Shown one piece after another: positions 6,245 to 23,513 of a stretch of DNA of 30,426 nucleotides (its first letter is position 1; every line of letters starts with the position of its first letter). The notes beneath the pieces were generated by a model. The model was not told where the DNA came from. It searched no databases and saw only the letters and a program-made list of their open reading frames with translations. A program made the translations under genes and the position numbers. Source of the DNA: an uncultured Oscillospiraceae bacterium (GTDB taxonomy: Bacteria; Bacillota; Clostridia; Oscillospirales; Oscillospiraceae); contig CAJLCG010000020.1 of assembly GCA_905205085.1 (NCBI GenBank), positions 1 through 30,426 of the forward strand, in the 5' to 3' direction.

Positions 6245-7582
6245 CTACGGCTCCTCTCGCTTTGTATCAAGATAGGTCATGGCCAGGGTGACCAGCAGCG
6301 TGATCCCCTCTGCAAAGGGAACTGCCAGCCAAACCCCGTTCAGGTCCCATACCCCGGGCAGAAGGGTTAAGAATAAAAGCAGCAGGGCAAAGGAGCGCAA
6401 AAACGTAATGACGCCGGACAAATGCCCTTTCCCGTAGGCCATAAACCGGATGGCGCAGAAGATACTGACTCCGGAAAACAGGAACCCCAGCCCATACCAA
6501 CGCATTCCGGATACGGCCAGCGTGTAGACGCTGCTCTGGGGCTGGGCAAAGAAGCTCACCCCCAGCGGGGCCAGGAAATAGGTCATCCCATACAGCACGA
6601 AGGGGGCAACGGAAAGGAAGCGCCGGGCGTAGGACTCCAAAATCCGGCAGACATCCCGCTGTCCGTTTCCATACGCATATCCCAGCGGCGGCGCGATGCC
6701 CATGGAGAACCCAAAATAGATGCCGATGACCAGAAATTGCAGATACATAATGATAGAGACCGCGGCAATGCCGTCCTCTCCGGCAAAGGCCATAGCCGTT
6801 CGGTTAAACACTACGGTGGTAATGGCGATAGCCAGCTGATTGACACATTCCGAAAGGCCGTTGACCATACAGCGCCCGGCAAGCGAAGGGGTCAGGCCCT
6901 CCACGGTGAGGCGAAAGATCTTTTTCCGCGCTGCAAAATAGAAGATCCCCATGCAGAAGGAGAGAAGCAGCCCCAGGATGGTTGCCGCGGCGGCTCCCTG
7001 GATGCCCATGTCCAGCCGGGCAACCAGCAGATAATCCAGCACAATGTTGCAGATTCCCCCGGCCAGCGCCGTCAAGAAGCTGTATGTAGGCGCTCCGTCC
7101 ACCCGAATAAAATAGGTGAACACTTCCTTCCCTACCACCAGAGGGGCGCCCATCAGCCACCAGATGGCATAGACCTGGCAGTCGGCCATGGTTGCCGGGG
7201 TGGCACCCAGTCCATCCAGCACAGCGTTCAGATTCCAGCCCACCAGCAGGGCCACCCCGCACCCCAGCAGAAGGGAGCAAAGGAGGCTGACCGAGAAGGC
7301 CCGGTTTGCCTCCTGCTCCCTTCTGGCTCCAATAAGCAGCGCGGCCACCGCGCTGCCTCCGGTGGCAAAGATCAGCGCGATGCCGTACAGCACATTGACA
7401 ATGGGATATACAATGTTGATGGCCGCGAGGGCGTTGGTTCCCACATAGGAGGAGACAAAAATGCCGTCCACAATGGTATATAACGTATTGAACAGGGAGG
7501 TCAGGTAGGTGGGAATGATAAATCGCAGCACCTTTCCAAATCGGACCTCACTTACAGAAGAAAATATTAAGGTTTTTTCCAC
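6245..7582 (-). CDS. MATE family multidrug/cation exporter
   Basis: The 445-residue product has about 12 transmembrane helices in two MATE half-domains. The N-half carries RFIIPTYLTSLFNTLYTIVDGIFV and the repeat-like SYVGTNALAAINIVYP. The second half starts near GRCMVNGLSECVNQLAIA. MATE proteins export drugs or metabolites using Na+ or H+ gradients. I chose GTG at 7582 because a GGAGGG site (7594-7589) sits 6 nt before it. ATG at 7603 overlaps the -10 element and cannot be translated from that promoter, and ATG at 7588 abuts the ribosome site. It is transcribed divergently from a MerR regulator and preceded by a MerR-type promoter, so it is probably induced by MerR when its ligand binds. The neighbouring acetyltransferase suggests an antibiotic-response module. 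Confidence 0.9.
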   Translation of the reverse strand: MEKTLIFSSVSEVRFGKVLRFIIPTYLTSLFNTLYTIVDGIFVSSYVGTNALAAINIVYPIVNVLYGIALIFATGGSAVAALLIGARREQEANRAFSVSLLCSLLLGCGVALLVGWNLNAVLDGLGATPATMADCQVYAIWWLMGAPLVVGKEVFTYFIRVDGAPTYSFLTALAGGICNIVLDYLLVARLDMGIQGAAAATILGLLLSFCMGIFYFAARKKIFRLTVEGLTPSLAGRCMVNGLSECVNQLAIAITTVVFNRTAMAFAGEDGIAAVSIIMYLQFLVIGIYFGFSMGIAPPLGYAYGNGQRDVCRILESYARRFLSVAPFVLYGMTYFLAPLGVSFFAQPQSSVYTLAVSGMRWYGLGFLFSGVSIFCAIRFMAYGKGHLSGVITFLRSFALLLLFLTLLPGVWDLNGVWLAVPFAEGITLLVTLAMTYLDTKREEP

Positions 7583-7601
7583 TCTCATCCCTCCGGGTAT
7601 C

Positions 7602-7632
7602 ATAGTAAACCTTCAAGCACCTTGAAGGTCAA
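7602..7632 (-). promoter_or_regulatory. MerR-type promoter and operator driving the MATE gene
   Basis: On the minus strand, -35 TTGACC (7632-7627) and -10 TACTAT (7607-7602) are separated by 19 bp instead of 17. The spacer holds a perfect dyad with 9-bp arms ACCTTCAAG/CTTGAAGGT around a 3-bp centre (7609-7629). An over-long spacer filled by a dyad is the hallmark of promoters that MerR-family activators untwist. The merR gene starts 44 bp away on the other strand. Confidence 0.88.
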
Positions 7633-9285: not shown

Positions 9286-10452
9286 TTAGTAAGCTACCGG
9301 CACGTCGATCTCCATATCCTCCAGGGGATAGGTGACACAGGGGTGGATAAAGCCGAACTTCCGGTCCGCCTCCCGGCGGCCGTCCCGGCCATCCGCAATG
9401 CGATAGCGGCCCGACAGCCACTTGCTGTGACAGAAGCCGCAGCCTCCGGCGCGGCACTTGTTGGGGGCATTCAGTCCAGCCCGCTCCATGGCGACCAGCA
9501 GGGTTTCATTCTCCTTTGCGTCAAGGACGTAAACCTGGTCCCGCATGTGAACGGTGAGCTTAAATACGGCAGGCTTGTCCAGGGGCAGATCATGGCAGCA
9601 GGCCGCATCCCGGTGCACCGCCTTCTTAGGCAGATTCAGGGGGGCAAGCTCCTTGGCAATAAACTCATACATGGCGGGCGGACCGCACAGGAAGAAGGTA
9701 CGGTCGATGAGATCGGTGTACTTCTTCATCAGCTCCACCGACACAAAGCCCTTTTCGCATCCCGGCTGCTCCTCATCGCTGAGGACATACACCACCTTCA
9801 AATCCTTGCAGCGCTCCGCCAGCGCGTCCAGTTCCGCTTTATAAGCCAGCTGCGCCGCCGTGCGTGCGCCATAGAACAGGAGCATGGAGTAGCTCTCATC
9901 TCCATCGGCCAGGCTGCCTGCCATGGACAAGAAGGGCGTGATGCCGCTGCCGCCGGCCACGCAGATGATATTCTTGCTGTCCCGCAGCGTTTCATAGTGG
10001 AACTCGCCGGAGGGCTCGGTCATCACGAACCGGTCGCCCACCTTGGCCGTTTTGTTGAGGTATTCCGACACAAAGCCCGCATTCTCTACCGCCAGCACCA
10101 GCTTGTTTTCCAGGGCCTGCTGGGGCGTGGAGACAATGGAATAGGGACGGCTGACCAGGCTGTCCCCAATCTTCATCTGAAGGGAGACATACTGTCCGGC
10201 ACGGAAGAAGGGGAACGCGTCGCTGTCCACCCGCTTGAAGGTCAGCTCCCGGATGGCAGCGGTGAGGGGCCGTGCGGCAACCAGCTCCACCTGCATATAG
10301 CCGGGATGCAGCTTTTTGGCCAGCGTGTTGGTGCGGTATTCCTGAGGCAGCGTTTTATTGTCTCCCTGGGCCAGCATCTGCCGGCGGGTGGGGACCAGCT
10401 TTTTAAACCGCAGCATATCCATAAACCCAAAGATCTGTTTCTTGAAGTTCAT
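9286..10452 (-). CDS. Ferredoxin-NAD(P) reductase-type flavoprotein with C-terminal 2Fe-2S ferredoxin domain
   Basis: This 388-residue electron-transfer protein moves electrons between NAD(P)H, a flavin and a 2Fe-2S cluster. After a short N-terminal segment, the flavin-binding barrel (about 48-155) carries RPYS at 102-105. The nucleotide-binding domain (about 160-285) carries AGGSGITP at 166-173 and CGPP at 256-259. The C-terminal plant-type ferredoxin domain (about 296-388) has cluster cysteines Cys333-x4-Cys338-x2-Cys341 and Cys372. The arrangement resembles reductase components of oxygenases and NqrF-like proteins. The start codon shares one base with the stop of the upstream oxidoreductase, so the two are translationally coupled, and this protein is the obvious electron partner of that enzyme. 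The partner assignment is inference. Confidence 0.88.
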   Translation of the reverse strand: MNFKKQIFGFMDMLRFKKLVPTRRQMLAQGDNKTLPQEYRTNTLAKKLHPGYMQVELVAARPLTAAIRELTFKRVDSDAFPFFRAGQYVSLQMKIGDSLVSRPYSIVSTPQQALENKLVLAVENAGFVSEYLNKTAKVGDRFVMTEPSGEFHYETLRDSKNIICVAGGSGITPFLSMAGSLADGDESYSMLLFYGARTAAQLAYKAELDALAERCKDLKVVYVLSDEEQPGCEKGFVSVELMKKYTDLIDRTFFLCGPPAMYEFIAKELAPLNLPKKAVHRDAACCHDLPLDKPAVFKLTVHMRDQVYVLDAKENETLLVAMERAGLNAPNKCRAGGCGFCHSKWLSGRYRIADGRDGRREADRKFGFIHPCVTYPLEDMEIDVPVAY

Positions 10453-12005
10453 TATGCCTTCGCCTCCTTCTTCAAATCGCCTACCGTCTGCCGTCCGGAC
10501 AGGTCGCCGGAAATATAGGCGCTGGAATATCCGCTGGAGCGCATGGCGTAGCCGCCTGCAAAGCGGATACCCGGATTCATGAGCGCGTCCTCCTTCATCA
10601 TCATCATGCGGGGCATCAGGCTGTCCCAATCGGCCGTCTCATAGCCGTAAATCACGCCCTGGGGATGGCCGCAGTAGCGGGCATAGGTGGTGGGGGAGGC
10701 CACACAGATCTCCTCGATGGCGTCCCGGATCTTGCAGCCGGTCTCCCGCTCAAACACCCGGATCATGTCATCCGCCACCTGGTCTTTCATCTTGAAATAG
10801 TCTTTTTCGGTCACATTTCCCCAGTCGTCGGACATAAACATGGTGGTAAAGTACATGATGCAGGTGCCCTTGGGCGAGCACTCCGGGTAGGCGTTATTGA
10901 GACAAACCGTGGCCTGCACATGGTTGGTGCTGACCTTTTTCATGAGATCATACTGCTTGACGGTATCGGCAGTGTCATAGATAAAGTAGTTGTGGCTGGT
11001 GATGCCCAGCTCCTGGGCGGAGCGGTTGAGGCCCAGGAAGAGAGAGAAGCCCCGGCCGGCAAACTTGCGGCTGTTGGTGGCCCGCACCATCTGCTCGGTC
11101 ACGGCCTTCTTCTCCAGCATCTTGCCAAACACCAGGTGGGGCGAACAGTTGGCGATGATGTGGTGGGTGTCGATCACCGTGCCATCGGTGAGCTGCACGC
11201 CCTGGATCTTGCCGCTGTCATCGGCCAGAATCTTTTCTGCCTCGGAGTGATACCAGATGTCGCCTCCCAGCTCCCGGATGCGGGTATCCAGGGCCAAGCT
11301 GATCTCATGGGAGCGCATTTTTGGCATCCAGGCGTCCCGGGTAATATACCGGATCACCATGGAGCCATAGTGCAGAAAGCTCATGCGGTCACAGTCCACG
11401 CCCAGATAGCACCAGTAGGCGTTGAGGATATCCTTGGCCTTCTGGGGCATCTTGAGAGCATCCAGCACCTCATTGACGGAATAGCTGCCCGCCTTGACAA
11501 AGTTAGGGAAGGTCTTTTTCATATAGTCGGAGTCGGTGTTGCCGTTGACCGAGTTGGAGTATGTCTGGGCATCCCGCACCTCGTTGCACAGCTCAAAAAA
11601 CTCCGTGATGGATTTGCGGGACTCGGGGCAGTACTCCACCATCTTGTCGATAAAGGCCTGCTGGCCAAAGGGCATGACGCAGTCATACTTTTTATCGGTG
11701 GTGATGAGGTGGTACGCCTCGGGGATGCGCACCCAGTCGATTTTATTCTCCACGCCCAGGTCGCGGAACAGGGTGCGCACATCGCCGGGCTCTTCCGGAG
11801 AACCAAAGTCGTTGAGCTCATGCAGGCTCGCCTCAAATTCAAAGCGTCCCCGCTTGAAGCTGGTGGCAAACCCGCCGGGCAGATTGTGCTTTTCCAGCAG
11901 CAAACAGGAGTATCCAGCCTGCAAAATCCGGATGGCGGCAACCAGGCCGCCGTTGCCTGCGCCTATGACCACCACGTCATAGGCTTTTTTCGCTTTTGTT
12001 GCCAT
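10452..12005 (-). CDS. Phytoene desaturase-like FAD-dependent oxidoreductase
   Basis: The 517-residue flavoprotein has an N-terminal Rossmann FAD motif GAGNGG at 15-20, an acidic ribose-binding Glu38 and the following LPGGFATSF loop. The C-terminal FAD contact reads GIRFAGGYAMRSSGYSSAYISG. This is the phytoene dehydrogenase/retinol saturase/carotenoid isomerase superfamily, whose members desaturate, saturate or isomerise conjugated lipids. No carotenoid genes are nearby, so the substrate is unknown. The ATG at 12005 has a near-ideal AAAGGAGG site 7 nt upstream. It is the middle gene of a tetR-oxidoreductase-reductase operon; a TetR regulator suggests induction by a small, probably hydrophobic ligand. 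An anaerobic reductase acting on a dietary or host unsaturated compound is one guess. Confidence 0.82.
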   Translation of the reverse strand: MATKAKKAYDVVVIGAGNGGLVAAIRILQAGYSCLLLEKHNLPGGFATSFKRGRFEFEASLHELNDFGSPEEPGDVRTLFRDLGVENKIDWVRIPEAYHLITTDKKYDCVMPFGQQAFIDKMVEYCPESRKSITEFFELCNEVRDAQTYSNSVNGNTDSDYMKKTFPNFVKAGSYSVNEVLDALKMPQKAKDILNAYWCYLGVDCDRMSFLHYGSMVIRYITRDAWMPKMRSHEISLALDTRIRELGGDIWYHSEAEKILADDSGKIQGVQLTDGTVIDTHHIIANCSPHLVFGKMLEKKAVTEQMVRATNSRKFAGRGFSLFLGLNRSAQELGITSHNYFIYDTADTVKQYDLMKKVSTNHVQATVCLNNAYPECSPKGTCIMYFTTMFMSDDWGNVTEKDYFKMKDQVADDMIRVFERETGCKIRDAIEEICVASPTTYARYCGHPQGVIYGYETADWDSLMPRMMMMKEDALMNPGIRFAGGYAMRSSGYSSAYISGDLSGRQTVGDLKKEAKA

Positions 12006-12022
12006 AGTGTTCCTCCTTTAAT

Positions 12023-12613
12023 TTACACCAGCAGATTGCGGGAACGTTCCAGCCAGTGCTGTAATTCTTCTTCGCTTTTGACCTGCTTATAATAGCTCAA
12101 AATAATGCGGTAATATTCGGTCAGTTCGGTGCTGATCTCCTCTTGGCTGAAATTAAGATAACAGGTGGCCATCATCACCGCCATGGAGTAGCTGTAATAC
12201 TGCATTCTCCGGTGCATCTCCGCGGCCTTCTGCCGGGGAAGCTCCAGGTTTACCTCCAGCTTATGGATGGTCTGCGCTTCATTGGGGTCCTCAAAGAAGG
12301 TTTCCCCCGCGGCCCGCTGACGCAGGTAGACCAGCTGAAACAGGTTCTTCTCCTGCTGCGCAAAGTGCAGGAAGGAGAGGGCCACCTGCTTATAGCTGTC
12401 GGCGTCCTCACGGAGATAGTGTTCCCGGATATAGGCCACCAGTTCCTCCCGCAAGGTTTCCATATTTTCAAATTCCGAATAAATAGGCTGGGTGGAGCAG
12501 CGTAAGGTTCTGGCTATGTTGCGCACCGAAAGCGCCGCTGTCCCTTCTTCCTGAACCAATTGGACGGCAGCCTTTAAAATATCCTCACGAAAGATCCGTT
12601 TCCGCGGCGGCAT
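12023..12613 (-). CDS. TetR/AcrR family transcriptional repressor
   Basis: The 196-residue product has a TetR DNA-binding domain at about 8-55 (REDILKAAVQLVQEEGTAALSVRNIARTLRCSTQPIYSEF compressed to its key parts: helix 1, the Ala-Ala-Leu-Ser-Val turn, and the recognition helix ending in Pro-Ile-Tyr). An all-helical ligand/dimer domain follows. The ATG at 12613 has AAAGAGGAG upstream with 6-nt spacing. The gene is first in its operon, 17 bp before the phytoene-desaturase-like gene. A perfect 22-bp inverted repeat sits just after the predicted transcription start, so it very likely represses its own operon until a ligand binds. The ligand is unknown; by operon logic it should be the substrate of the downstream flavoenzyme. 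Confidence 0.9.
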   Translation of the reverse strand: MPPRKRIFREDILKAAVQLVQEEGTAALSVRNIARTLRCSTQPIYSEFENMETLREELVAYIREHYLREDADSYKQVALSFLHFAQQEKNLFQLVYLRQRAAGETFFEDPNEAQTIHKLEVNLELPRQKAAEMHRRMQYYSYSMAVMMATCYLNFSQEEISTELTEYYRIILSYYKQVKSEEELQHWLERSRNLLV

Positions 12614-12636
12614 AAAAGACTCCTCTTTCTCGCGTT

Positions 12637-12658
12637 ATAAATAACACATGTTATTTAT
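12637..12658. promoter_or_regulatory. Operator palindrome for the TetR regulator
   Basis: Ten-base arms ATAAATAACA and TGTTATTTAT flank a 2-bp centre, a perfect inverted repeat. It lies 24 bp upstream of the tetR start codon and a few bases downstream of the predicted transcription start, the usual position for TetR repression. Confidence 0.85.
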
Positions 12659-12667
12659 TGCTATTTT

Positions 12668-12696
12668 ACTATATCTTCAGGTATCTTACAAGTCAA
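12668..12696 (-). promoter_or_regulatory. Sigma-A-type promoter of the tetR operon
   Basis: The minus strand carries -35 TTGACT (12696-12691), a 17-bp spacer and -10 TATAGT (12673-12668). The predicted start near 12661 places the operator in the first transcribed bases. Confidence 0.85.
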
Positions 12697-12799
12697 TTTA
12701 GAAGAAACGCACAGAAAATTACAGGTCAAAAGAAACCGCACCTGCCGCACTTTGCTTCCAGCGGCAGACTGGGCTGGCATCTTTAACGACTGTATATAG

Positions 12800-12833
12800 C
12801 AGGGGCGCCTACGAAAGTCCGCAGGCGCCCCTG
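12800..12833. terminator. Hairpin, possible terminator of the PLP enzyme gene
   Basis: A perfect 11-bp GC-rich stem (12800-12810 with 12823-12833) with a 12-nt loop lies about 110 bp beyond the end of the minus-strand PLP enzyme gene. Neither strand has a proper T tract after it, so termination is uncertain. Confidence 0.4.
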
Positions 12834-12942
12834 TTGTGAATACATCAATTGGTTTTCCCCCTTACGGGTATACCATTTGGCTTAAAGCAGGTTCTCATTG
12901 CAGAGGCGTTTTCGCATCCGCAATCGTTATCAAACGTGCTCC

Positions 12943-14151
12943 TTATTCGTGAAACACGTACTGATCCAGGCGGTCGAATGCCTCCTGAATACGGGAAAGG
13001 GGAGAGGCCATGTTCATACGGATATGGCAGGGGCCGTGAAATGCCCGGCCGTCCTGCCAGCCCACACCCACGTCCCAGCCGGCCTTGATCACCTCGTCCA
13101 GCGTCCGGCCCGTGCGCTTGCAGTAGTCCGTCAGATCCAGGAACAACATGTAAGTGCCCTGAGGCATAGCAGCGAAAACGCCCGAATAGTGGTCCCGGAT
13201 ATGTTCATAGGCGTACCGGCAGTTGCCCTCCAGCACCTGAAGCAGCTCATCCGTCCACGCCTGTCCCTCGTCGGAATAGGCTCCTATCAGGGCATGCATG
13301 GAAAGAACGTTCATTTCGTTGTAGTGGGTGGCATCACCCCAGGCTTTCACCCGGTCCCGGAGATAAGCATTGTAAATGATATGGTAGCTGCCAATGAGCC
13401 CCGCCAGATTAAAGGTCTTGGAGGGGGCGTAGACGGCCACGGTGTGCTCTTTTGCCCAGTCGTTGACCATCAGGGTGGGGGTGTGCTGGGTGTAGGTGAT
13501 GTCCGCCCAGATCTCATCTGAAATGACCAGGCACTGGTTGGCCTCATATACCTCCATGGCCTTTTCCAGCTCCCACCGCTCCCAGACCCGGCCGGTGGGA
13601 TTGTGGGGGGAGCAGAAGATGGCCAGGTGGATGTGGTACTTCTTCAGTTTCCGGTCCATGTCCTCATAGTCCATGCGCCACACGCCGTTTTCATCCCGTT
13701 TGAGCGGGCTGTACACGGAGGTCCGTCCCAAACCCTCTACATCGGCGCGAAAGCCCACATAGGTGGGGCTGTGGAGCAAGATCCGGTCCCCGGGGGCAGA
13801 GAGCGTCTGAATGGCGCTGGTGACACAGCCGTGGACCCCGTTCTCATAGCCGATGTAGTCCCGCTTGAGCCCGGTAAAGCCATTGCGCTTGGTCTGCCAG
13901 TTGATAATGCTCTGGTAGTATTCGTCCCGAGGCTGGAAATAGCCGTAGAGCGGGTGCTTTGTGCGCTCCATCACGGCCGCAGGAACGGCAGGACAGGTGG
14001 CAAAGTTCATGTCCGCCACCCACATGGGAATGGCATCAAACCCTTCCTTTGGAGCGGCTGGCTCGTTGCCCCAAATCTTGTGGCCGATCCCGTCCACGGC
14101 AATGGCATCCATGCCGCGGCGATCCAGGATGGAAGTGAAATCGTACTTCAA
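12943..14151 (-). CDS. MalY/PatB-type PLP-dependent aminotransferase or C-S lyase
   Basis: The 402-residue fold-type I PLP enzyme has family landmarks in order: MWVADMNF near 43-50, NPTG at 184-187, SDEIW at 211-215 with the PLP-pyridine Asp212, and SKTFN with Schiff-base Lys245. The combination VADM plus SDEIW and SKTFN is typical of the MalY/PatB group. Its members act as cystathionine beta-lyases or related C-S lyases, releasing a thiol, pyruvate and ammonia. The start is a TTG at 14151. Homologues begin with a very similar MKYDF block, the next Met is 13 residues in, and AGAAGG lies 9 nt upstream. It diverges from the MATE-PstA fusion gene and has its own strong promoter. The exact substrate is not determined. 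Confidence 0.88.
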   Translation of the reverse strand: MKYDFTSILDRRGMDAIAVDGIGHKIWGNEPAAPKEGFDAIPMWVADMNFATCPAVPAAVMERTKHPLYGYFQPRDEYYQSIINWQTKRNGFTGLKRDYIGYENGVHGCVTSAIQTLSAPGDRILLHSPTYVGFRADVEGLGRTSVYSPLKRDENGVWRMDYEDMDRKLKKYHIHLAIFCSPHNPTGRVWERWELEKAMEVYEANQCLVISDEIWADITYTQHTPTLMVNDWAKEHTVAVYAPSKTFNLAGLIGSYHIIYNAYLRDRVKAWGDATHYNEMNVLSMHALIGAYSDEGQAWTDELLQVLEGNCRYAYEHIRDHYSGVFAAMPQGTYMLFLDLTDYCKRTGRTLDEVIKAGWDVGVGWQDGRAFHGPCHIRMNMASPLSRIQEAFDRLDQYVFHE

Positions 14152-14251
14152 AATCGTCTGCCTTCTCTCTTGAAAAATATGCGTTTATTCCGTTTCCGGG
14201 CGGTGAGCAGGACCTCCCCGGTAGATACAAGTTTTTATTGACGTTTTCTTC

Positions 14252-14280
14252 ATTATATAAACATCTTAGCACAATTTCAA
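14252..14280 (-). promoter_or_regulatory. Promoter of the PLP enzyme gene
   Basis: On the minus strand, -35 TTGAAA (14280-14275) and a perfect -10 TATAAT (14257-14252) are separated by exactly 17 bp. Confidence 0.88.
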
Positions 14281-14490
14281 CACATCATCATCTGAGATTT
14301 CCCCTGTCTCTAACGTGGCGCTGAACATATTTGTCCGTGGCATTCATGCCGGTATTGGCGGCCCATGCCAGCGGGCATTTGTTCATGCCCGCCCGCCTGC
14401 CAATGAACTGGGCAGCAGACTGCGTGTCGCACCGAAATATGTGCTGAATATTTGCAATTTTCAAGTAGGATTATTCTAGATAATTTATTA

Positions 14491-14519
14491 TTGACATCAC
14501 CTATGGAATACCTTATGAT
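14491..14519 (+). promoter_or_regulatory. Promoter of the MATE-PstA fusion gene
   Basis: A perfect -35 TTGACA (14491-14496), 17-bp spacer and -10 TATGAT (14514-14519) make this one of the best consensus promoters in the window. The predicted leader is about 110 nt. Confidence 0.9.
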
Positions 14520-14636
14520 ACCATACTGCGTTATACCCAAGTCCGTTTCAACATGCGTGTACATAACACGCAAGATGGAGCAGCTGGCCTTAACGCTTAT
14601 TGTAACGAACCATATGCCAAGAGGAGGGCCGGATCC

Positions 14637-16325
14637 GTGAAAGAGAGCAATTCGGCGGCCATGATATTTGATGAAAACAACATCTGGAAAATTCTTTTTC
14701 GCATCGCACCTCCCGTTATGCTGGCCCAGCTTATCCAGGCCATGTATAACATCGTGGACAGCTACTTTGTTGGAAAATATTCCGGAGACGGCCTGACTGC
14801 TCTTTCCGTCATCTTCCCCATTCAGCTTATTGTGACGGCTCTGGCCGTAGGAACCGGGGTAGGCGTGAACACTCTGATGTCCCGGGACTATGCCAGGGGA
14901 CGGGTGCCGCGGGCAAACCGCACGGCGGGAACCGGTACCGTTTTGGCTTTGATCAGCTGGGTCCTGTTTGCTGTATTAAGTAGCCTGTTTATGCGTCCCT
15001 ATGTGGAAACTTCGGCCAGTTCCGCTCAGGCCGTGGAATATGCCATTACGTATGGCCGCATCGTATGCATCGGCAGTTTGGGCGTCTTTTTGGAAAGTAT
15101 CTGGAGCAAGGTGCACCAGGCCAGCGGCAATATGCGCCTGCCCATGCTGGCGCAGATCTCCGGTGCCCTGACCAACATCCTGCTGGACCCCATTCTAATC
15201 TTTGGCTTTGGCCCCATTCCCGCCATGGGTGTGGCCGGGGCCGGTTATGCCACCGTGGCGGGCCAGGTGGTGGCCGCGCTGATTACCTCTTCCGCACTGC
15301 GCAGGCCGCCCCAGCTGCGTGCTCTGGGGCGATATGCCTGGCAAATCTATAAGCTGGGTTATCCCTCTATTTTTATGCAGATGCTGTACACCGTGTACAT
15401 TGTGGCCCTAAATGTGATTCTGGCCAGCTTCTGTGATGAGGCGGTCACCGTACTGGGTCTCTACTACAAGGTACAGTCCTTCTTCTTTATCCCCATGGCA
15501 GGCCTTCAAACCTGTATTGTTCCCTTGCTGAGCTATACCAACGCCAAGGGAAATTACCGGCGGTGTCAGACGATACTGGTGGACGCCACCCTTCTGGCGA
15601 TGAGCTTTATGCTGGTAGGCGTCGCTTGCTTTGAGCTGATTCCCGATCGGCTGCTGTCGATTTTCTCACAGGATGCCAGAGTTCTGGAAATCGGCATTCC
15701 GGCCTTCCGTATCATCGGGCTGAGCTTCCTTCCCGCTGTCCCTTCCCTGATGACACCTGTATTCTTTCAGGCCATCGGCAAGGCCATTCCCAGTGTGATC
15801 CTGGCCCTGACCCGACAGATTTTCTGCCTGATCCCTATTTTCTGGGGACTTTCCCAGTTTGGTCTGGGTTACTCCTGGGGCGCTTTCCCCATTGCCGAGA
15901 CGGTAACCGGAAGTGTTGGTTTACTGCTCTACCTGCGTCAGCGCAGAGAGTGGCAGCTTTATAGCTCCAGAGACTTTAAGTCGGAACAGAGAGGACGAAT
16001 TTCCATGAAGATGATTACTGCAATTATCAGCAAAAAAGACTCCGACGAAGTGTGCCGTGCGCTCAGTGAGGGCGGATACTATTTTACAAAAATGGCCTCT
16101 TCCGGCGGTTTTCTCAGCTGGGGCAATACCACGCTGATCATTGGCACCGAGTCCGACCGGGTCAAACCCGCCATTGAGATCATTCGTGCCAACTGCTCCA
16201 AGCGGGTGGAAAATATTCCGTCCACCATGCAGCTGCCTGCACATTCGGTCACTACCAATACCGAGGTTGTGGTTGGCGGAGCCACTATTTTTGTCACAGA
16301 AGTGGAAGAATTTGAAAAGATTTAA
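14637..16325 (+). CDS. MATE transporter fused to a PstA/DarA-like cyclic-di-AMP receptor domain
   Basis: One uninterrupted 562-residue frame has two parts. Residues 1 to about 445 form a MATE exporter with about 12 helices (APPVMLAQLIQAMYNIVDSYFVGKY compressed: the Pro-Met-Leu and Asn-Ile-Val-Asp blocks; later NILLDPILIFGFG). Residues 457-562 match the whole length of PstA/DarA PII-like c-di-AMP receptors: MKMITAII start, TKMASSGGF at 484-492, GNTT at 496-499 and VGGATIFV at 546-553. A charged linker of about 15 residues joins them. PstA proteins trimerise and bind c-di-AMP between subunits, so the fusion suggests a transporter gated by this second messenger. GTG at 14637 was chosen for the GAGGAGGG site 8 nt upstream. 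Where most family members as I recall them have Arg before the conserved Thr, this protein has Tyr482. Confidence 0.88.
   Translation: MKESNSAAMIFDENNIWKILFRIAPPVMLAQLIQAMYNIVDSYFVGKYSGDGLTALSVIFPIQLIVTALAVGTGVGVNTLMSRDYARGRVPRANRTAGTGTVLALISWVLFAVLSSLFMRPYVETSASSAQAVEYAITYGRIVCIGSLGVFLESIWSKVHQASGNMRLPMLAQISGALTNILLDPILIFGFGPIPAMGVAGAGYATVAGQVVAALITSSALRRPPQLRALGRYAWQIYKLGYPSIFMQMLYTVYIVALNVILASFCDEAVTVLGLYYKVQSFFFIPMAGLQTCIVPLLSYTNAKGNYRRCQTILVDATLLAMSFMLVGVACFELIPDRLLSIFSQDARVLEIGIPAFRIIGLSFLPAVPSLMTPVFFQAIGKAIPSVILALTRQIFCLIPIFWGLSQFGLGYSWGAFPIAETVTGSVGLLLYLRQRREWQLYSSRDFKSEQRGRISMKMITAIISKKDSDEVCRALSEGGYYFTKMASSGGFLSWGNTTLIIGTESDRVKPAIEIIRANCSKRVENIPSTMQLPAHSVTTNTEVVVGGATIFVTEVEEFEKI
15988..16007 (+). 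promoter_or_regulatory. Internal ribosome site and ATG at the start of the PstA domain
   Basis: AGAGAGGA at 15988-15995 lies 9 nt before the in-frame ATG at 16005, exactly where a free-standing PstA would start. It could allow separate synthesis of the soluble c-di-AMP receptor, or be a relic of two once-separate genes. Confidence 0.45.
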
Positions 16326-16335
16326 CCCTTTCACC

Positions 16336-16374
16336 AAAAGAGGGCAGAACACAATGTGTTCTGCCCTCTTTTTC
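16336..16374. terminator. Strong terminator between MATE-PstA and GGDEF genes
   Basis: A 17-bp perfect stem including A/T ends (16336-16352 with 16356-16372) and a 3-nt loop is followed by T-rich sequence. It lies 11 bp after the fusion gene stop and also serves as a reasonable minus-strand terminator for the convergent gene. Confidence 0.93.
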
Positions 16375-16397
16375 TTATCTGCACTTAGTATCCTTCT

Positions 16398-17399
16398 TTA
16401 CTGCCGCCCACTTTTTCGCCGGTCCGTATCCTGTGAACTGTAAAATGCGGCTTTTACCTGATACATCTGTCGATCCGCTTCTTCAAGCTGCTCTTCCATG
16501 CTGCAATGGCTCGCTCTCCATGATATGCCGATGGAAACGCTGATACCATCCCGCTCCATGTTTCCTTTGGCTGTAAGGATTGCGTTTCGGAACGCATCTT
16601 CTTCCAATTCCCAATCAACCACCACAAATTCATCGCCGCCTATGCGGTAGCCTCTTCCCGCAAACATACCGGCAATATGGTTTGCTGTGCGGCAAATGAG
16701 ACCGTCTCCGGCCCTATGTCCCATGTGGTCATTGACCTGTTTTAACCCGTTCAAGTCAATGGCCGCCACACCCAGCCTGGAGGGAGGGTCTTGTTCAAAC
16801 GTCTGCATATCGTGGTTAAATTTATTTCGGTTGAACAGTCCAGTCAGGGAATCCTCAAAACTCAGTTTTTCCAGGAGCTTTGTCTGTTCCTCAATCTTTC
16901 TCTTGTACTCATCAATACATTTTTGAAGATATTCGTATGTGTACTGCCCGATCTGCGTAGGAAAGCCTACATCCTGCTGCGTCATTTCGGAATAGGGATT
17001 CGAGATATGAATGTGGCAGCAGCGGGGCGTACCGTCTACCCAACGAAAAACAGCGGTAATACGCTGGTGTACACAAAGATAGACATTCGTGGAGGGATCG
17101 GTGGCGATCCATGCTCTGCCGGTACAAATATATACATCTGGAGAAGCGTCAATCACATCGTATTCTTCGTCCCAGATGTTGCATTTGGGAACCATATTTT
17201 CAAATTGCCGGAAAATTCCCGAAATAGTTTCCGTTCCTACCTCATATTCGTGTTCCGCTGCACCAAACCAACTCAGCCGATCATCAAACAGTTTAATGAT
17301 CGCCTCTACATCGTTTTCGCAATAGTGCTTGTGAAGCAAACAACTGGTTAATGCCTTAACCGTCTGTATCTTATGGTCTCTATCGAGAGATTGCGTCAT
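16398..17399 (-). CDS. Diguanylate cyclase with N-terminal SnoaL/NTF2-like domain
   Basis: The 333-residue soluble protein has an NTF2/SnoaL-like pocket domain at about 15-135, a short helical linker at about 155-180 (EYKRKIEEQTKLLEKL) and a GGDEF domain at about 180-325. DSLTGLFNRN (183-192), the metal-binding Asp215 and an intact GGDEF at 254-258 indicate an active cyclase making c-di-GMP from two GTP. The RxxD inhibitory site normally just before GGDEF is absent, so product feedback should be weak. The N-terminal domain probably senses a small molecule. ATG at 17399 has GAGGG 7 nt upstream. It is convergent with the MATE-PstA gene. There is no transmembrane segment. Confidence 0.9.
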   Translation of the reverse strand: MTQSLDRDHKIQTVKALTSCLLHKHYCENDVEAIIKLFDDRLSWFGAAEHEYEVGTETISGIFRQFENMVPKCNIWDEEYDVIDASPDVYICTGRAWIATDPSTNVYLCVHQRITAVFRWVDGTPRCCHIHISNPYSEMTQQDVGFPTQIGQYTYEYLQKCIDEYKRKIEEQTKLLEKLSFEDSLTGLFNRNKFNHDMQTFEQDPPSRLGVAAIDLNGLKQVNDHMGHRAGDGLICRTANHIAGMFAGRGYRIGGDEFVVVDWELEEDAFRNAILTAKGNMERDGISVSIGISWRASHCSMEEQLEEADRQMYQVKAAFYSSQDTDRRKSGRQ

Positions 17400-18822: not shown

Positions 18823-21800
18823 ATGGAAGCCATGAAGGATGCGGTGAAAACACCAACAAAGCGGGAATGGGACGCCAAAGAAAAGAGTATGGGACAGAGC
18901 TTCCGGAGAGAAGTGATTCAACGGGTGACCGTTTATATGTCCCGGGCCATTGAAGCGGCCAACCGGGAATATCAGGTGGAGGATCAGGAATTTTGGAAGA
19001 ACCTGTTTTTGCCCACCGGACCGGAGGGAAGAACCGTTGTGGATGTCCGGGATCTGGGCGAGACCTGTCCCCCCAATCCCTATCGCCGTCTGGACTTTCA
19101 GGGCAGCAACAAGTATTTGCTGTATGGTGGCGGACGGCTGCTGTCGAAAGAACAGACACCCCCCGTTTATGCCAGGGACAGTCTGAATTTTTTTGAGAAA
19201 TTCAAGGTTGAGTACAACCGTCAGCCATTTCAGCGCCGGGATGGAAACTGGAGGCCACCCGGTCCCAAGAAAGGCTACCAGGATGTTCTCCGGCGTGTCA
19301 TCAAAATGCGCAACTACAGCGCCCACGAGACAGAGGAGAGCATCAACCAGGTATCGTTGGAAGGGCTGGACCAGGATCTGAAGACGCTAAAGGCACTGAC
19401 TGAGCCCATCAGCCGCTGCACTGGCTGGGAGCAGGAGTTGGAGCCTGTTAAAGTCTTTTGGTCAAAAAAAGAGCGGGAATTTCAACAGACCTTTGGCAAG
19501 GTTCCGGTTTTCGTGGAGGAAATCGCCCAGGAATTGTTTACCACCGAGACTCTGTCCGAGGAACAGAGAGAGGCACTGGAGAAAGCAATCTGGTGGCTGC
19601 ATTTGGATTGCGAGGGTGGAAAGATCTACGGAGAAGACCGCCGTGAGCTCAAGGAGAAGCTCCGGCATACCCCTGCCATTGCAGCGCTGTTGGGAACCAC
19701 GGTCTTCCAGTCCTCTGAGGAGGCAGCGGCACTGACCAAGCGGGCAGAGCCGGAAGAGACATCGCTCAACGAGAGCCAGCCCCTGGAACAGCCCCTGTGG
19801 AGCCCGCTGCCCGCTGAGGCCGCGGCCAGGCTTAGCCGGGCAAAGATCAGCATTCCCCGGGAGGCGGGTATGCTCTCGGCCCTTTTGGAGTCCTTTACTC
19901 TGCTGGTAGATGAGAGCATTTTTCTGTCGGAGGAGGGGCGTGAGCTGCTCATTGAGCACCTCACACCGCTGCTGATGAAACGCAATCAGCGGCTCTACGT
20001 GGATGAGTCGGTGATCGCAACCCTGTTTCAGCAGTTTCGCAACAGTGCGCCCTATACACAGCTGGAGCTGGCTGACGCAGAGCTGGATGGACTGGACTCT
20101 GAACAGATCGCCGAAATGCAGGAAATGCGGCGGCAGATACACAAAAACAGCAAAACAGCCATCAAAACCTTGCGTTTTATGCGCACGCGCAGATGTCTGG
20201 AGGTTGTGTCCAGCCCCACGGACAGCACATACAGTTACGAAAACTTTTTCTACCTGGCTCAGGCCTACCCGGCGGTCCGTTTTCTCATGCTCACCCACGA
20301 CCGCCAGCTGGCCGAGGAACTCAAATCCGTGCGGGGACGAAATGTCGTTGTCCTCAAGCCTCAGCTGGATGGCAATTTGCTGCCCTATCGTGCCACCCGG
20401 TCTGTGTTTACGGATATGCTGAACGCACGGGCAGAGTCCGCCGTCGGACGTGCAGGCAAGGTGTCTGTCCAGGCCGAGGAGCGCTTACCTAATATTCTGC
20501 CTCCCATCCCCGGAGAGCGTCTGATGGCAGAGTTGACAGATGGAACCCAACTGGAGCTGCGTGTGGGCAAGGAACTGGGCCGCGGAGGGGAAGGTGCAAT
20601 CTATGAAACCAGCCGGCCGGAGCTGGCGGCCAAGGTCTATTTCCGCAGGGATGGCCAGCGTCTGGAGAAGCTGAAGCAGATGGTAAAGCACGATCCCGGG
20701 ATTCCTGGTCTCTGCTGGCCCAGCGCGCTGCTGTATAATGCCATGGGGGAGTGGCTGGGGTTTCTCATGCCAAAGGCCTCCGGAACAGAGCTGGCCATGA
20801 CCGTATTTCATCCCGGGCGGGGCAACCGCAACATCATAGCCCAGGGATGGAGCCGGAAAAGCCTGGCGGTCATTGCGGCAAACATTGCCGCCGCGTTTGC
20901 TCAGATGCACGAAAAGGGGATCCTGATGGGAGACATCAACCCCCGGAATTTTCTGGTCGCCTCCGACTGCTCCGTTTATCTGGTGGACTGTGACAGCTAC
21001 CAGTTCGGCGGCTTTGCCTGTCCGGTGGGAACGATTCTCTATACCCCCCCGGAGGTACACCGGGAGATGCGCGCCAGGGGCAAGGAGCATTACGGCTATA
21101 CCCGCACCGAGGACCACGAGCGCTATTCTTTGGCGGTGCTTCTGTTTGAAATCCTCATGCTGGGTAAGGCGCCCTATGAAAGCCGCAACAACAATCCGCA
21201 GGACGTACAGGAAGCCATTATTTCCGGCGATTTCCCCTATCCTTACCACGCGGATGATGAGGAAGCAGAAAACCGGCCGGTGGGCAAGGTAAATGCACCG
21301 GTGGGCCAGTGGCGCCAGATCTGGAGCCATACCACATACCTGGTCAAAACCGGTTTTTATAACACCTTTACCAACAAAAACCGTCTGTCAGCCCGGCAGT
21401 GGGAGGAGATCTTCCGTGAGTATGCCCGGCAGATTGAGCTGGGACACAGCAGCGATGAGCTGGTGCCCCGCGGATACAAGGATACCAGCGGCCGGGAGGG
21501 TGAAGACGGCACCAAGATGGTCAATCTGATCTGCCAGGATTGCGGCCTGCCCTTTAACCTGGCAGAAGATGTATGGCAGAAGCGGAAGCGGCGAGGCGAA
21601 CCCGATCTGTGCAGTACCCACTGGGAAATCCGCCAGAACTTCCAGCGGCGAGAGAAGATTGTTACCTGCGGCTGCTGCGGCGCTTCTTTCGTATCTAATG
21701 TGGCAGAATGGATGGAGCGGGTCCAGGCCGGCAAACCCATGCTGTGCCCTAACTGCACCCATGTACAGGCCACATGCAGCCGCTGCGGCAGGCGGTACCA

Positions 21801-22002
21801 GGAGACCAAAGATCGGGTAGAGGACCTTCAGCAGCGGGGGAAAGATCTGCTTTGCCCAGACTGCTTTGAGGAAATTTTCCCCAAGGTGATCTGCCAGCGG
21901 TGCGGCACCCCCTTCCGTCCACATAAAATGTGGCTGGATTCCCGGCAGCGCAGCGGCAAAGAAATTCTATGCAAGCGATGTGACAACGAGTTGAAATTGT
22001 AA
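18823..22002 (+). CDS. HEPN - PIN-like - Ser/Thr kinase - four zinc ribbon multidomain protein
   Basis: The protein has 1059 residues. Residues 1-200 are helical with RNYSAH at 163-168, the RNxxxH motif of HEPN RNases (Swt1-like in general form). Residues 350-515 look PIN-like: Asp363 on a first strand, acidic Glu473, and a THDRQL turn with Asp493; the usual second acidic position seems replaced. Residues 580-870 form a protein kinase: glycine loop GRGGEG at 586-591, Lys604, catalytic GDINPRN (Asp704, Asn709) and a metal-binding VDCDS (Asp722) of the YegI-like type. Residues 900-1059 hold four CxxC zinc ribbons about 40 residues apart (Cys904/907, 949/952, 985/988, 1024/1027; second pairs 975/978, 1011/1014 and 1050/1053, with 930/His933 in the first). 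It is followed after 17 bp by VWA and PP2C genes, completing a TerY-P-type triad. Domain calls for HEPN and PIN come from motifs only. Confidence 0.82.
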   Translation: MEAMKDAVKTPTKREWDAKEKSMGQSFRREVIQRVTVYMSRAIEAANREYQVEDQEFWKNLFLPTGPEGRTVVDVRDLGETCPPNPYRRLDFQGSNKYLLYGGGRLLSKEQTPPVYARDSLNFFEKFKVEYNRQPFQRRDGNWRPPGPKKGYQDVLRRVIKMRNYSAHETEESINQVSLEGLDQDLKTLKALTEPISRCTGWEQELEPVKVFWSKKEREFQQTFGKVPVFVEEIAQELFTTETLSEEQREALEKAIWWLHLDCEGGKIYGEDRRELKEKLRHTPAIAALLGTTVFQSSEEAAALTKRAEPEETSLNESQPLEQPLWSPLPAEAAARLSRAKISIPREAGMLSALLESFTLLVDESIFLSEEGRELLIEHLTPLLMKRNQRLYVDESVIATLFQQFRNSAPYTQLELADAELDGLDSEQIAEMQEMRRQIHKNSKTAIKTLRFMRTRRCLEVVSSPTDSTYSYENFFYLAQAYPAVRFLMLTHDRQLAEELKSVRGRNVVVLKPQLDGNLLPYRATRSVFTDMLNARAESAVGRAGKVSVQAEERLPNILPPIPGERLMAELTDGTQLELRVGKELGRGGEGAIYETSRPELAAKVYFRRDGQRLEKLKQMVKHDPGIPGLCWPSALLYNAMGEWLGFLMPKASGTELAMTVFHPGRGNRNIIAQGWSRKSLAVIAANIAAAFAQMHEKGILMGDINPRNFLVASDCSVYLVDCDSYQFGGFACPVGTILYTPPEVHREMRARGKEHYGYTRTEDHERYSLAVLLFEILMLGKAPYESRNNNPQDVQEAIISGDFPYPYHADDEEAENRPVGKVNAPVGQWRQIWSHTTYLVKTGFYNTFTNKNRLSARQWEEIFREYARQIELGHSSDELVPRGYKDTSGREGEDGTKMVNLICQDCGLPFNLAEDVWQKRKRRGEPDLCSTHWEIRQNFQRREKIVTCGCCGASFVSNVAEWMERVQAGKPMLCPNCTHVQATCSRCGRRYQETKDRVEDLQQRGKDLLCPDCFEEIFPKVICQRCGTPFRPHKMWLDSRQRSGKEILCKRCDNELKL

Positions 22003-22019
22003 GGAGGCCGGCAGGGACC

Positions 22020-22757
22020 ATGAGCGAGCAAGGGCGCAGTAAGTTTCCGGAGAAGACACCCCAGGAATATCTCCTGGAAGAAGAGGAGCTGAGCAGCAAT
22101 TCGGAACGGCGCACCCCCATTACCGTGTGCATTGACTGCTCCTTTTCCATGTTACAGCAACGCCGCCTGGAGCGTGTGATGGAGGGGTTAGCCGATTTTT
22201 GCAGGGATATGGCGGTGGACCCCATTGCCAGTCAATCGGTAGAACTATGCATCGTCAGCTTTGGCGGCGAGGGGGCCTTTGTGGAGCAGGATTTCACCGC
22301 TCCGGACCGCATTCAGCTGCCCCGCCTCCGCGCCAGCGGCGAAACACCGCTGGCCGACGCGGTGATGACTGCACTGGCAAATCTGGATATGCGCAAGCGC
22401 CGCTACGCAGACAATGGAAACTCCTATTTCCGCCCCTGGCTCATTGTGATCGGCGATGGAGATGAGACCCAATCGGCTGCCGAGTTGGAGAAAGCGGCCG
22501 CCGTGCTGAAGGCGGAGTATGAAAACAAGCGGCTGAGCGTGCTTTGTGTGACGGTAGGAGATAAGGATCACATGGAATGCGACTCGCTGATGAAGCTCTC
22601 CCCCGAACGAAAGGTGCATTATCTGCGAGATCTGAAATTTCGGGAGTTTTTTAACTGGCTGAGCCGGAGCATCCAGAAGACTACTCTTTCCATGAGTGGG
22701 GAAGAGGTCTTCTACGATCCCACCACGACCTGGGGGGAAATTTTAGGGCAAAGTTGA
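22020..22757 (+). CDS. TerY-like von Willebrand factor A (VWA) domain protein
   Basis: The 245-residue product has a single VWA domain with an intact metal-ion-dependent adhesion site: DCSFS at 39-43, Thr109 in SGETPLADA, and Asp146 in a GDGDE loop. The acidic N-terminal tail (EEEEL near 20-24) precedes it. TerY-type VWA proteins are cytoplasmic scaffolds found with a kinase and a PP2C phosphatase in phosphorylation triads linked to tellurite/stress (Ter) systems and to defence-like islands. The gene begins 17 bp after the kinase gene and is followed 12 bp later by the phosphatase, giving the kinase-VWA-phosphatase order. No TerD or TerC gene is in the window. AAGGAGG lies at 22001-22007, slightly far from the ATG. 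Confidence 0.87.
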   Translation: MSEQGRSKFPEKTPQEYLLEEEELSSNSERRTPITVCIDCSFSMLQQRRLERVMEGLADFCRDMAVDPIASQSVELCIVSFGGEGAFVEQDFTAPDRIQLPRLRASGETPLADAVMTALANLDMRKRRYADNGNSYFRPWLIVIGDGDETQSAAELEKAAAVLKAEYENKRLSVLCVTVGDKDHMECDSLMKLSPERKVHYLRDLKFREFFNWLSRSIQKTTLSMSGEEVFYDPTTTWGEILGQS

Positions 22758-22769
22758 GGACAGGCAACC

Positions 22770-23513
22770 ATGAACTATAAAATCAGCTGGGTCGTACAGA
22801 CCGGAGCCTATCACACCGCCCAGGGCATCCCCTGCCAGGACCAGGTGTATGTGTGCCGGGAGGGCGACACGGTGTGCGCCGCTCTGGCCGACGGCGCAGG
22901 CAGCCGGGAGCGCAGCCATATCGGGGCGGCCTGTGTGACCCGCGTAGTAGCACAGCTGGCCTGCGCGGAATTTGCCCGGTGGTGGGACTGGGGCGAGGAG
23001 GAGCTGGCGGGTTATCTGCTCCGCCGCTGTCTGGAGGAGCTGGAACGGCAGTCCCCGCCTATCTATGAGCTTGCCAGCACCCTGCTGTTTTTTGCCGCAG
23101 ACGGGGAGGGACGGTACCTGTCCGGACACCTGGGGGATGGCGTTCAGATCCGGGTAATGCCGGAGCGGACGGAGGTATTCAGTCCCCCGGAAAACGGCGC
23201 ATTTGAAAACGAGACCTATTTTCTCACTGAAGAGGACGCGCTGGAGCACTTCCGACTGCGCCGGGGGCGCTTGGAGGAGGTTGGCGGTCTGCTGCTGATG
23301 AGCGACGGCATGGCAGATAGTCTGTACCAGCGCAGTACCGGCACGCCCGCCAAAGCCTGTTCCACCATGGTGCGCTGGCTGCAAGAGGGTGATGAAGCGG
23401 TGATTACCCAGGCACTGGAGGAAAACACAAGGCGCTTTTTTGTTGAGCGCAGCGGAGACGACCTGAGTTTGGTAGTCCTTGCATGGCATAACGAGGAGGA
23501 GAGTCCGAAATGA
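22770..23513 (+). CDS. PP2C-family protein serine/threonine phosphatase
   Basis: The 247-residue PP2C domain has its metal ligands in place: CQD with Asp24, ADGAGS with Asp41-Gly42, HLGDG with Asp123, MSDGMAD with Asp179, and the final GDDLS with Asp230. It should remove phosphates from Ser/Thr of a partner protein in a Mn2+/Mg2+-dependent way, most plausibly reversing the action of the kinase encoded two genes upstream. No transmembrane segment is present. Its stop overlaps the start of the TPR/SEL1-like gene in an ATGA arrangement, showing translational coupling and shared dosage. The variant is the short PP2C typical of TerY-P triads rather than the PrpC housekeeping type; the latter assignment is from family knowledge. 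Confidence 0.9.
   Translation: MNYKISWVVQTGAYHTAQGIPCQDQVYVCREGDTVCAALADGAGSRERSHIGAACVTRVVAQLACAEFARWWDWGEEELAGYLLRRCLEELERQSPPIYELASTLLFFAADGEGRYLSGHLGDGVQIRVMPERTEVFSPPENGAFENETYFLTEEDALEHFRLRRGRLEEVGGLLLMSDGMADSLYQRSTGTPAKACSTMVRWLQEGDEAVITQALEENTRRFFVERSGDDLSLVVLAWHNEEESPK

Follow-up and report, generated by a model that had tools for sequence, protein, structure and literature searches.

We describe a gene from an uncultured Oscillospiraceae bacterium in which a MATE transporter and a complete PstA/DarA-type receptor for cyclic di-AMP (c-di-AMP) share one reading frame, with a conserved signal for an internal translation start directly ahead of the receptor. The fusion is genuine, occurs in diverse forms and arose once. 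Its architecture is already present in domain annotation; the internal start is the new part and, judged by comparison of related sequences, is well supported. We lean slightly towards one gene encoding a c-di-AMP-regulated MATE exporter with two products, the fusion and a free PstA. The fuller proposal, that a c-di-AMP-gated exporter and the free PstA completing its sensing trimer come from one gene whose internal start was kept nearly throughout the history of the family, we hold at a little below even confidence.

The target of free PstA/DarA has proved difficult to pin down: a 2021 abstract still gives DarA as a target of unknown function (PMC7900238), and excerpts of a 2025 NMR study describe loops as presumed binding sites for downstream partners (PMC12435418). 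A natural fusion points to one class of effector for PstA, an exporter, and provides a self-contained test system. If the proposal is true, PstA would be wired directly to its effector, a PII-like trimer would control a monomeric transporter and c-di-AMP would be linked to export in Oscillospiraceae. No account of the fusion appeared in the titles or abstract openings returned by open-licence PMC full-text searches.

One reading frame for a transporter and a receptor

In the window, that is, the whole stretch of 30,426 nucleotides analysed here, the gene and its flanks comprise the following features:

14491..14519, plus strand: sigma-70-like promoter, TTGACA-17-TATGAT, 11/12 matches in a consensus scan, upstream of the fusion gene
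14620..14628, plus strand: Shine–Dalgarno sequence of GTG 14637, AGAGGAGGG, duplex energy -11.8 kcal/mol
14637..16325, plus strand: MATE–PstA fusion gene, 562 residues, GTG start, stop codon at 16323-16325; many relatives of the same length in the database
14637..15953, plus strand: MATE transporter part, residues 1-439 (Pfam MatE, TIGR00797, MATE fold)
14757..14759, plus strand: Asp41, invariant in 35 aligned fusions and aligned with Asp41 of PfMATE (6hfb)
15174..15188, plus strand: Asn180 and Asp184, invariant in 35 aligned fusions and aligned with Asn180/Asp184 of PfMATE (6hfb)
15954..16004, plus strand: linker, residues 440-456, in the model largely an extension of the last helix (416-453)
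16005..16325, plus strand: PstA/DarA-type receptor domain, residues 457-562 (Pfam CdAMP_rec); also the predicted free product of 106 residues
16086..16127, plus strand: putative c-di-AMP site, Thr28, GGFL 34-37 and Asn41 (PstA numbering), with roles taken from PMC4316997
16336..16372, plus strand: terminator-like hairpin from a scan, 17 pairs and a T-rich tail, directly 3' of the fusion gene

The frame is unbroken from the GTG to the stop codon in both the window sequence and its translation, and this open frame, together with Pfam matches to MatE and to full-length CdAMP_rec, bears out the original prediction of a MATE transporter and a complete PstA/DarA domain in one frame; the motifs on which it drew (TKMASSGGF, GNTT and VGGATIFV) are all present in the translation. 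The GTG is the likely start; an ATG at 14553 would give a longer frame but is less likely because of the strong Shine–Dalgarno match at the GTG. The original prediction would have fallen with a stop codon hidden by a sequencing error at the junction; the junction is no such artefact, and the frame crosses it unbroken both here and in 14 further genomes. Recurrence in these genomes and in 48 database proteins rules out a sequencing error or a chimera at the junction.

The promoter is the sole plus-strand promoter-like site in 14160-16600, in a scan that gave 6 sites for the region against 2.3 in shuffles, so that it is a match and no proof. The hairpin scan gave 5 against 2.7 in shuffles, with the stem at 16336..16372 the longest by far. 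With these two elements flanking the fusion and no plus-strand promoter-like site between them, it looks like a single-gene unit. Elsewhere, according to excerpts of PMC4475381, pstA is co-transcribed with tmk in a thymidylate kinase operon; this setting is absent here, where an aminotransferase-fold gene (PatB-like, below cut-off) and a GGDEF gene are the neighbours, both in the opposite orientation to the fusion. The GGDEF protein also has a SnoaL-like domain (16398-17399, minus strand, convergent with the fusion). Farther out, the window encodes a second, unfused MATE transporter (6245-7603, minus strand) and, side by side at 18823-23513, a protein kinase-like protein bearing cysteine-rich repeats, a protein with a VWA-like match just below cut-off and a PP2C phosphatase, a set that we take to resemble the TerY-phosphorylation triad. 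Genome G138, sampled from the same family as Oscillibacter genome G001, matches the window's DNA at 88-92% identity in two stretches of 10452-14151 and at 86% along the fused gene.

The transporter part matches Pfam MatE (PF01554) with an E value of 2.5e-42 (144.8 bits, cut-off 24.9), and the fusion matches TIGR00797 at 163.9 bits (cut-off 147.4). In an AlphaFold2 monomer model of the whole fusion (mean pLDDT 83.3), this part has a MATE fold, the best solved-structure matches by Foldseek being MATE structures (TM-score up to 0.86 by target), and its last helix (416-453) reaches the PII-like domain; residues 447-455, 490-494 and 543-546 are of low confidence. The fold is shared with DinF-BH (BH2163) and PfMATE, and Asp41, Asn180 and Asp184 line up with PfMATE, but neither protein has the cytosolic receptor domain of the fusion. 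We take Asp41 of PfMATE to be a cation/proton site and assign the Asn180/Asp184 positions a similar role. Transport seems to be under selection, since these putative ion-site residues are invariant in the 35 aligned fusions. Their invariance also counts against the transporter part being mainly a membrane anchor for a PstA that acts on something else, which we consider highly improbable. What speaks for an anchor is that the fused PstA is not the sole receptor: 10 of the 13 fused genomes searched with the family (G742 lies outside this set) have a second, unfused PstA match, split over two frames in G007, and only in G002, G010 and G419 is the fusion the sole match.

The receptor domain alone scores 103.2 bits against CdAMP_rec (PF06153; cut-off 27), covers profile positions 1-109 of 109 and matches the PstA crystal structures 4rww, 4rle, 4d3g and 4wk1. 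It shares the domain and the main binding residues with PstA/DarA of Staphylococcus aureus, Listeria monocytogenes and Bacillus subtilis. Excerpts of PMC4316997 report poor binding for the S. aureus PstA variants T28A, GGFL-AAAA and N41A, and the window has every one of these mutagenesis-tested residues. In a comparison of 56 fusions (P0046-P0048 were left out for their broken ends), Thr28, Phe36 and Leu37 are invariant, Gly47 and Phe99 are each retained in 55, and Asn41 in 54. In contrast to free PstA/DarA, the domain is tethered to a transporter, its B' loop region is shorter (by 3 residues compared with L. monocytogenes and B. subtilis PstA), it falls below the 140-bit cut-off of the NCBI DarA equivalog NF058593 (104.1 bits for the domain, 98.9 in the fusion) and three S. 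aureus contact residues are replaced, Asn24 by Gly, Arg26 by Tyr and Gln108 by Lys. The first and last of these replacements occur in 56/56 fusions and the change of Arg26 to Tyr in 55, the remaining fusion having Pro there, and these changes count against binding; residue 26 is Gly in the L. monocytogenes PstA, a c-di-AMP binder, as excerpted from PMC4475381. Because of the replaced contacts, we infer binding from the kept residues and regard it as plausible.

Rare and patchy distribution from a single origin

A length-restricted search of 5.8 billion proteins found 48 long proteins that match the receptor part. The domain-architecture search that the original prediction proposed returns MatE plus CdAMP_rec as already listed in precomputed annotation for 47 of them, the other, P0040, being annotated with CdAMP_rec only; as far as architecture goes, the suggestion that a c-di-AMP receptor is physically joined to an exporter was right. 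P0001, which stands for 228 member sequences, is 97% identical to the window over residues 450-562.

Few genomes have the fusion, and its distribution among them is patchy. Judged by the length of the open frame, it occurs in 2/300 of a family draw and in 5/86, 6/64 and 2/4 of genus-level draws, and by full-length match in 3/394 of an order draw and in 1/25, 2/400 and 2/296 of further sets; these draws overlap and together yield 14 fusion genomes, with frames of 563-618 residues that are open across the junction. One copy lies on the 504-kb plasmid pMM59_01 of Pusillibacter faecalis MM59 (G312:C2), where it is annotated 'cyclic-di-AMP receptor'.

In a tree of the transporter part, from which fused near-copies more than 97% identical, partial proteins and L157 were left out, a single branch (support 100/98) separates 43 fused rows from 19 PstA-less relatives. 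The fused rows thus form one clade, and one fusion event explains the data. In a tree of the PstA domain, the free PstA proteins L012-L015 are placed inside the fused group (SH-aLRT 82-96 at the enclosing forks) and may be domains released again from fusions, although the alignment is short, with few columns, and they sit on a long branch. In L013 and L014, the free PstA lies downstream of an apparent sigma-factor gene and a further gene, as read by eye.

We found no living intermediate in the form of an operon of separate genes: none of 96 free PstA rows has a transporter match at an E value of 1e-3 in its locus, most of these loci spanning only 1.5 kb per side, and no PstA start was seen by eye in the 200-300 nt 3' of the stop codons of PstA-less relatives (L006, L008, L009, L128, L129 and L155). 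Nor were conserved neighbours seen by eye in 11 fused loci (L005 and L169 were left out), compared through a crude longest-frame listing that includes spurious frames. Related transporters take other tails: the tail of the MATE at L133:1480-3411 is a cytidylate kinase-like domain (PF13189) and not PstA, and L134 and L136 have frames of similar length, so that this transporter group may take various C-terminal domains.

A conserved internal start signal

Two further elements lie at the junction:

15990..15995, plus strand: internal Shine–Dalgarno-like AGAGGA, 9 nt before the internal ATG, duplex energy -6.5 kcal/mol
16005..16007, plus strand: internal ATG, the start codon of PstA (Met457); the Met is kept in database fusions

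The duplex energy at this ATG beats that at all 17 other in-frame ATGs scored in the window, and the consensus scan gave no plus-strand promoter-like site ahead of the PstA part in the window, which favours an internal start. The equivalent of Met457 is kept in 48/48 database fusions and in 14 of the 15 fused genes read as DNA, a set that includes the window and in which the near-identical L003/L004/L016 and L073/L074 are not independent. In 14 of these 15 genes, the ATG comes with a Shine–Dalgarno-like motif (AAAGGAG, AAAGGA, AAGGGGG, AGAGGA or similar) whose GG lies 12 nt ahead, again in favour of an internal start. The median duplex energy with the anti-Shine–Dalgarno is -7.2 kcal/mol for the internal ATGs of the 14 genes; elsewhere in these frames, it is -2.0 at 214 in-frame ATGs and -2.5 at 86 ATGs out of frame (Mann–Whitney p of 1e-9 against the in-frame ATGs, the rows being related). 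The internal ATG ranks first among the in-frame ATGs scored in 11 of the 14 genes and second in the other 3, and its motif is stronger than the best candidate at the gene's own start in 9 of the 14, with the own start stronger in the window, L105, L002, L104 and L114.

Some results weigh against such a start. The internal motif is weaker than those at 75 free pstA starts (median -7.2 versus -10.8), 9% of the in-frame controls do at least as well as the weakest of the 14 (-5.7), and a synonymous-reshuffling test for selection on the codons of the motif was not significant (per-gene fraction 0.07 to 0.71).

To these DNA sequences can be added the coding capacity of the linkers, for which we counted whether the residues can encode (which is not the same as do encode) a core of AAGGA, AGGAG or GGAGG at a spacing of 4-11 nt. 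The 59 fusions give 43 distinct linkers, and all 42 that bear the Met have this capacity, compared to 33 of 329 Met-preceding stretches of the transporter part; the 43rd (L127), with Leu for Met, cannot encode a core. Shuffling residues within the 40 distinct linkers of proteins of at least 540 residues gave an expectation of 13.0, against 40/40 observed, and representatives below 80% identity gave 8.6, against 26/26; in both cases 0 of 20,000 simulations reach the observed value. At a spacing of 5-10 nt, the counts are 38/40 against 9.9 expected and 24/26 against 6.6. The 12 linker residues have a mean pairwise identity of 16%, and the capacity for the motif is nevertheless kept, so that residues drift while the signal stays.

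The phase of the core relative to the codons also appears to vary. By residue capacity, 14 linkers allow phase 0 only, 17 phase 1 only, 8 phase 2 only and 3 more than one, which implies at least 4 phase changes on the transporter tree with the window row and at least 3 without it. The case for phases 1 and 2 comes from coding capacity read off protein sequences: the window is tallied among the 17 phase-1 linkers by its residues, its real AGAGGA being in phase 0, and all 14 motifs read as DNA start a GGN codon, which is phase 0. For linkers of the other two phases, a scan of viral contigs gave no DNA, and genome searches returned known fusions, the new G742 and unfused relatives.

The original prediction held that the fusion would force or imply a trimeric exporter. 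That is not required, as the conserved internal start could supply free PstA, making one exporter with two free subunits possible. The trimeric exporter would follow if the fusion were the only product, with three tethered PstA domains trimerising and the internal ATG and motif left as relics of the former gene. Consistent with that reading are the single fusion origin in a transporter group whose other sampled members are without PstA, the codon tests, which gave no extra selection on the motif gene by gene, and a near-constant linker length suited to a fixed assembly; from the last Trp to the PstA Met there are 17-19 residues in 57 of 59 fusions, and the outliers, 6 and 15, may reflect another Trp. 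A relic should decay, however, and here the Met and the possible motif persist in diverged linkers, apparently in changing codon phases, so we judge a sole fused product unlikely. A motif at a domain boundary could also pause translation between the membrane part and the cytosolic domain without being a start site. Such a pause would not need a Met, yet the Met is kept in 42 of the 43 distinct linkers at start-site spacing, and we think this explanation very unlikely.

The exception, L127 (G742), is fused in frame but has lost the internal start (Met to Leu), and its receptor motifs have changed as well (GGF to GAF, GNTT to GSCT and VGG to VSG). By its sequence, it may be a natural example of a fusion that has given up c-di-AMP sensing. 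This joint loss counts as one case, because L104, in which Asn41 is changed to Ser, retains the internal start.

A proposed exporter with two products

MATE transporters are usually monomeric. In the two-product model, translation from GTG 14637 would yield the membrane-bound MATE–PstA fusion, and translation from the internal motif and ATG at 15990-16007 a free PstA of 106 residues. A tethered PstA domain and two free subunits would then make a 1+2 mixed trimer, with one exporter per sensing trimer; trimers of tethered domains only would be an alternative assembly. With c-di-AMP bound, the trimer loops would become ordered and, by way of the short helical linker, switch the exporter, perhaps by inhibition, a direction that is a guess modelled on the action of GlnK on AmtB. 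Since PstA binds its ligand at the monomer–monomer interfaces of the trimer, as described in excerpts of PMC4316997, one tethered domain on its own could not make up a complete site.

The closest parallel in gene organization that we considered is the MthK-type K+ channel, which excerpts of PMC2920069 describe as a membrane protein whose C-terminal domain forms a ligand-binding ring and whose linker has a conserved Met; translation from this internal Met is proposed to yield free RCK domains that interlace with the tethered domains and complete the ring. The corresponding feature here, a conserved internal Met with a ribosome-binding site, is present at the DNA level in 14 of 15 genes. We claim no shared ancestry. 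MthK is a channel with an RCK fold and an octameric ring, whereas the fusion is an exporter with a PII-like fold and a predicted trimer. The same excerpts describe Kch linkers that retain the Met and Kef linkers without it, and cite E. coli Kch, in which removal of the putative internal start left expression and function unchanged, a result that speaks against the two-product model.

As to regulation, PII-fold trimers control membrane transporters in GlnK–AmtB and SbtB–SbtA, and such control by the fused PstA is proposed here; in those systems, as excerpted in PMC10710835, a separate PII protein meets a trimeric transporter, in contrast to a covalent fusion to a MATE protein. In osmoregulatory ABC importers of the OpuA/OpuC type, c-di-AMP acts on the transporter's own CBS domains (excerpts of PMC10710835), and the fusion would likewise carry its own receptor, though with another transporter class and another receptor fold.

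A different role for the sensor follows if the cargo is c-di-AMP itself or a related nucleotide, with PstA as a feedback sensor that opens the exporter at high c-di-AMP. We consider this quite unlikely. A sensor on an exporter fits it, and some Listeria multidrug transporters export c-di-AMP, although these belong to the MFS rather than the MATE group; against it, MATE substrates are not predictable from sequence, and no nucleotide gene stood out near the fusion in the loci compared by eye. A diadenylate cyclase is encoded in 20 of 20 genomes tested, which shows that c-di-AMP can be made, but these comprise 14 with the fusion and 6 without, so that its presence does not discriminate between fused and unfused genomes. 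In P. faecalis MM59, the genome's only diadenylate cyclase match lies on the same 504-kb plasmid as the fusion, and pMM59_01, as its carrier, may be essential.
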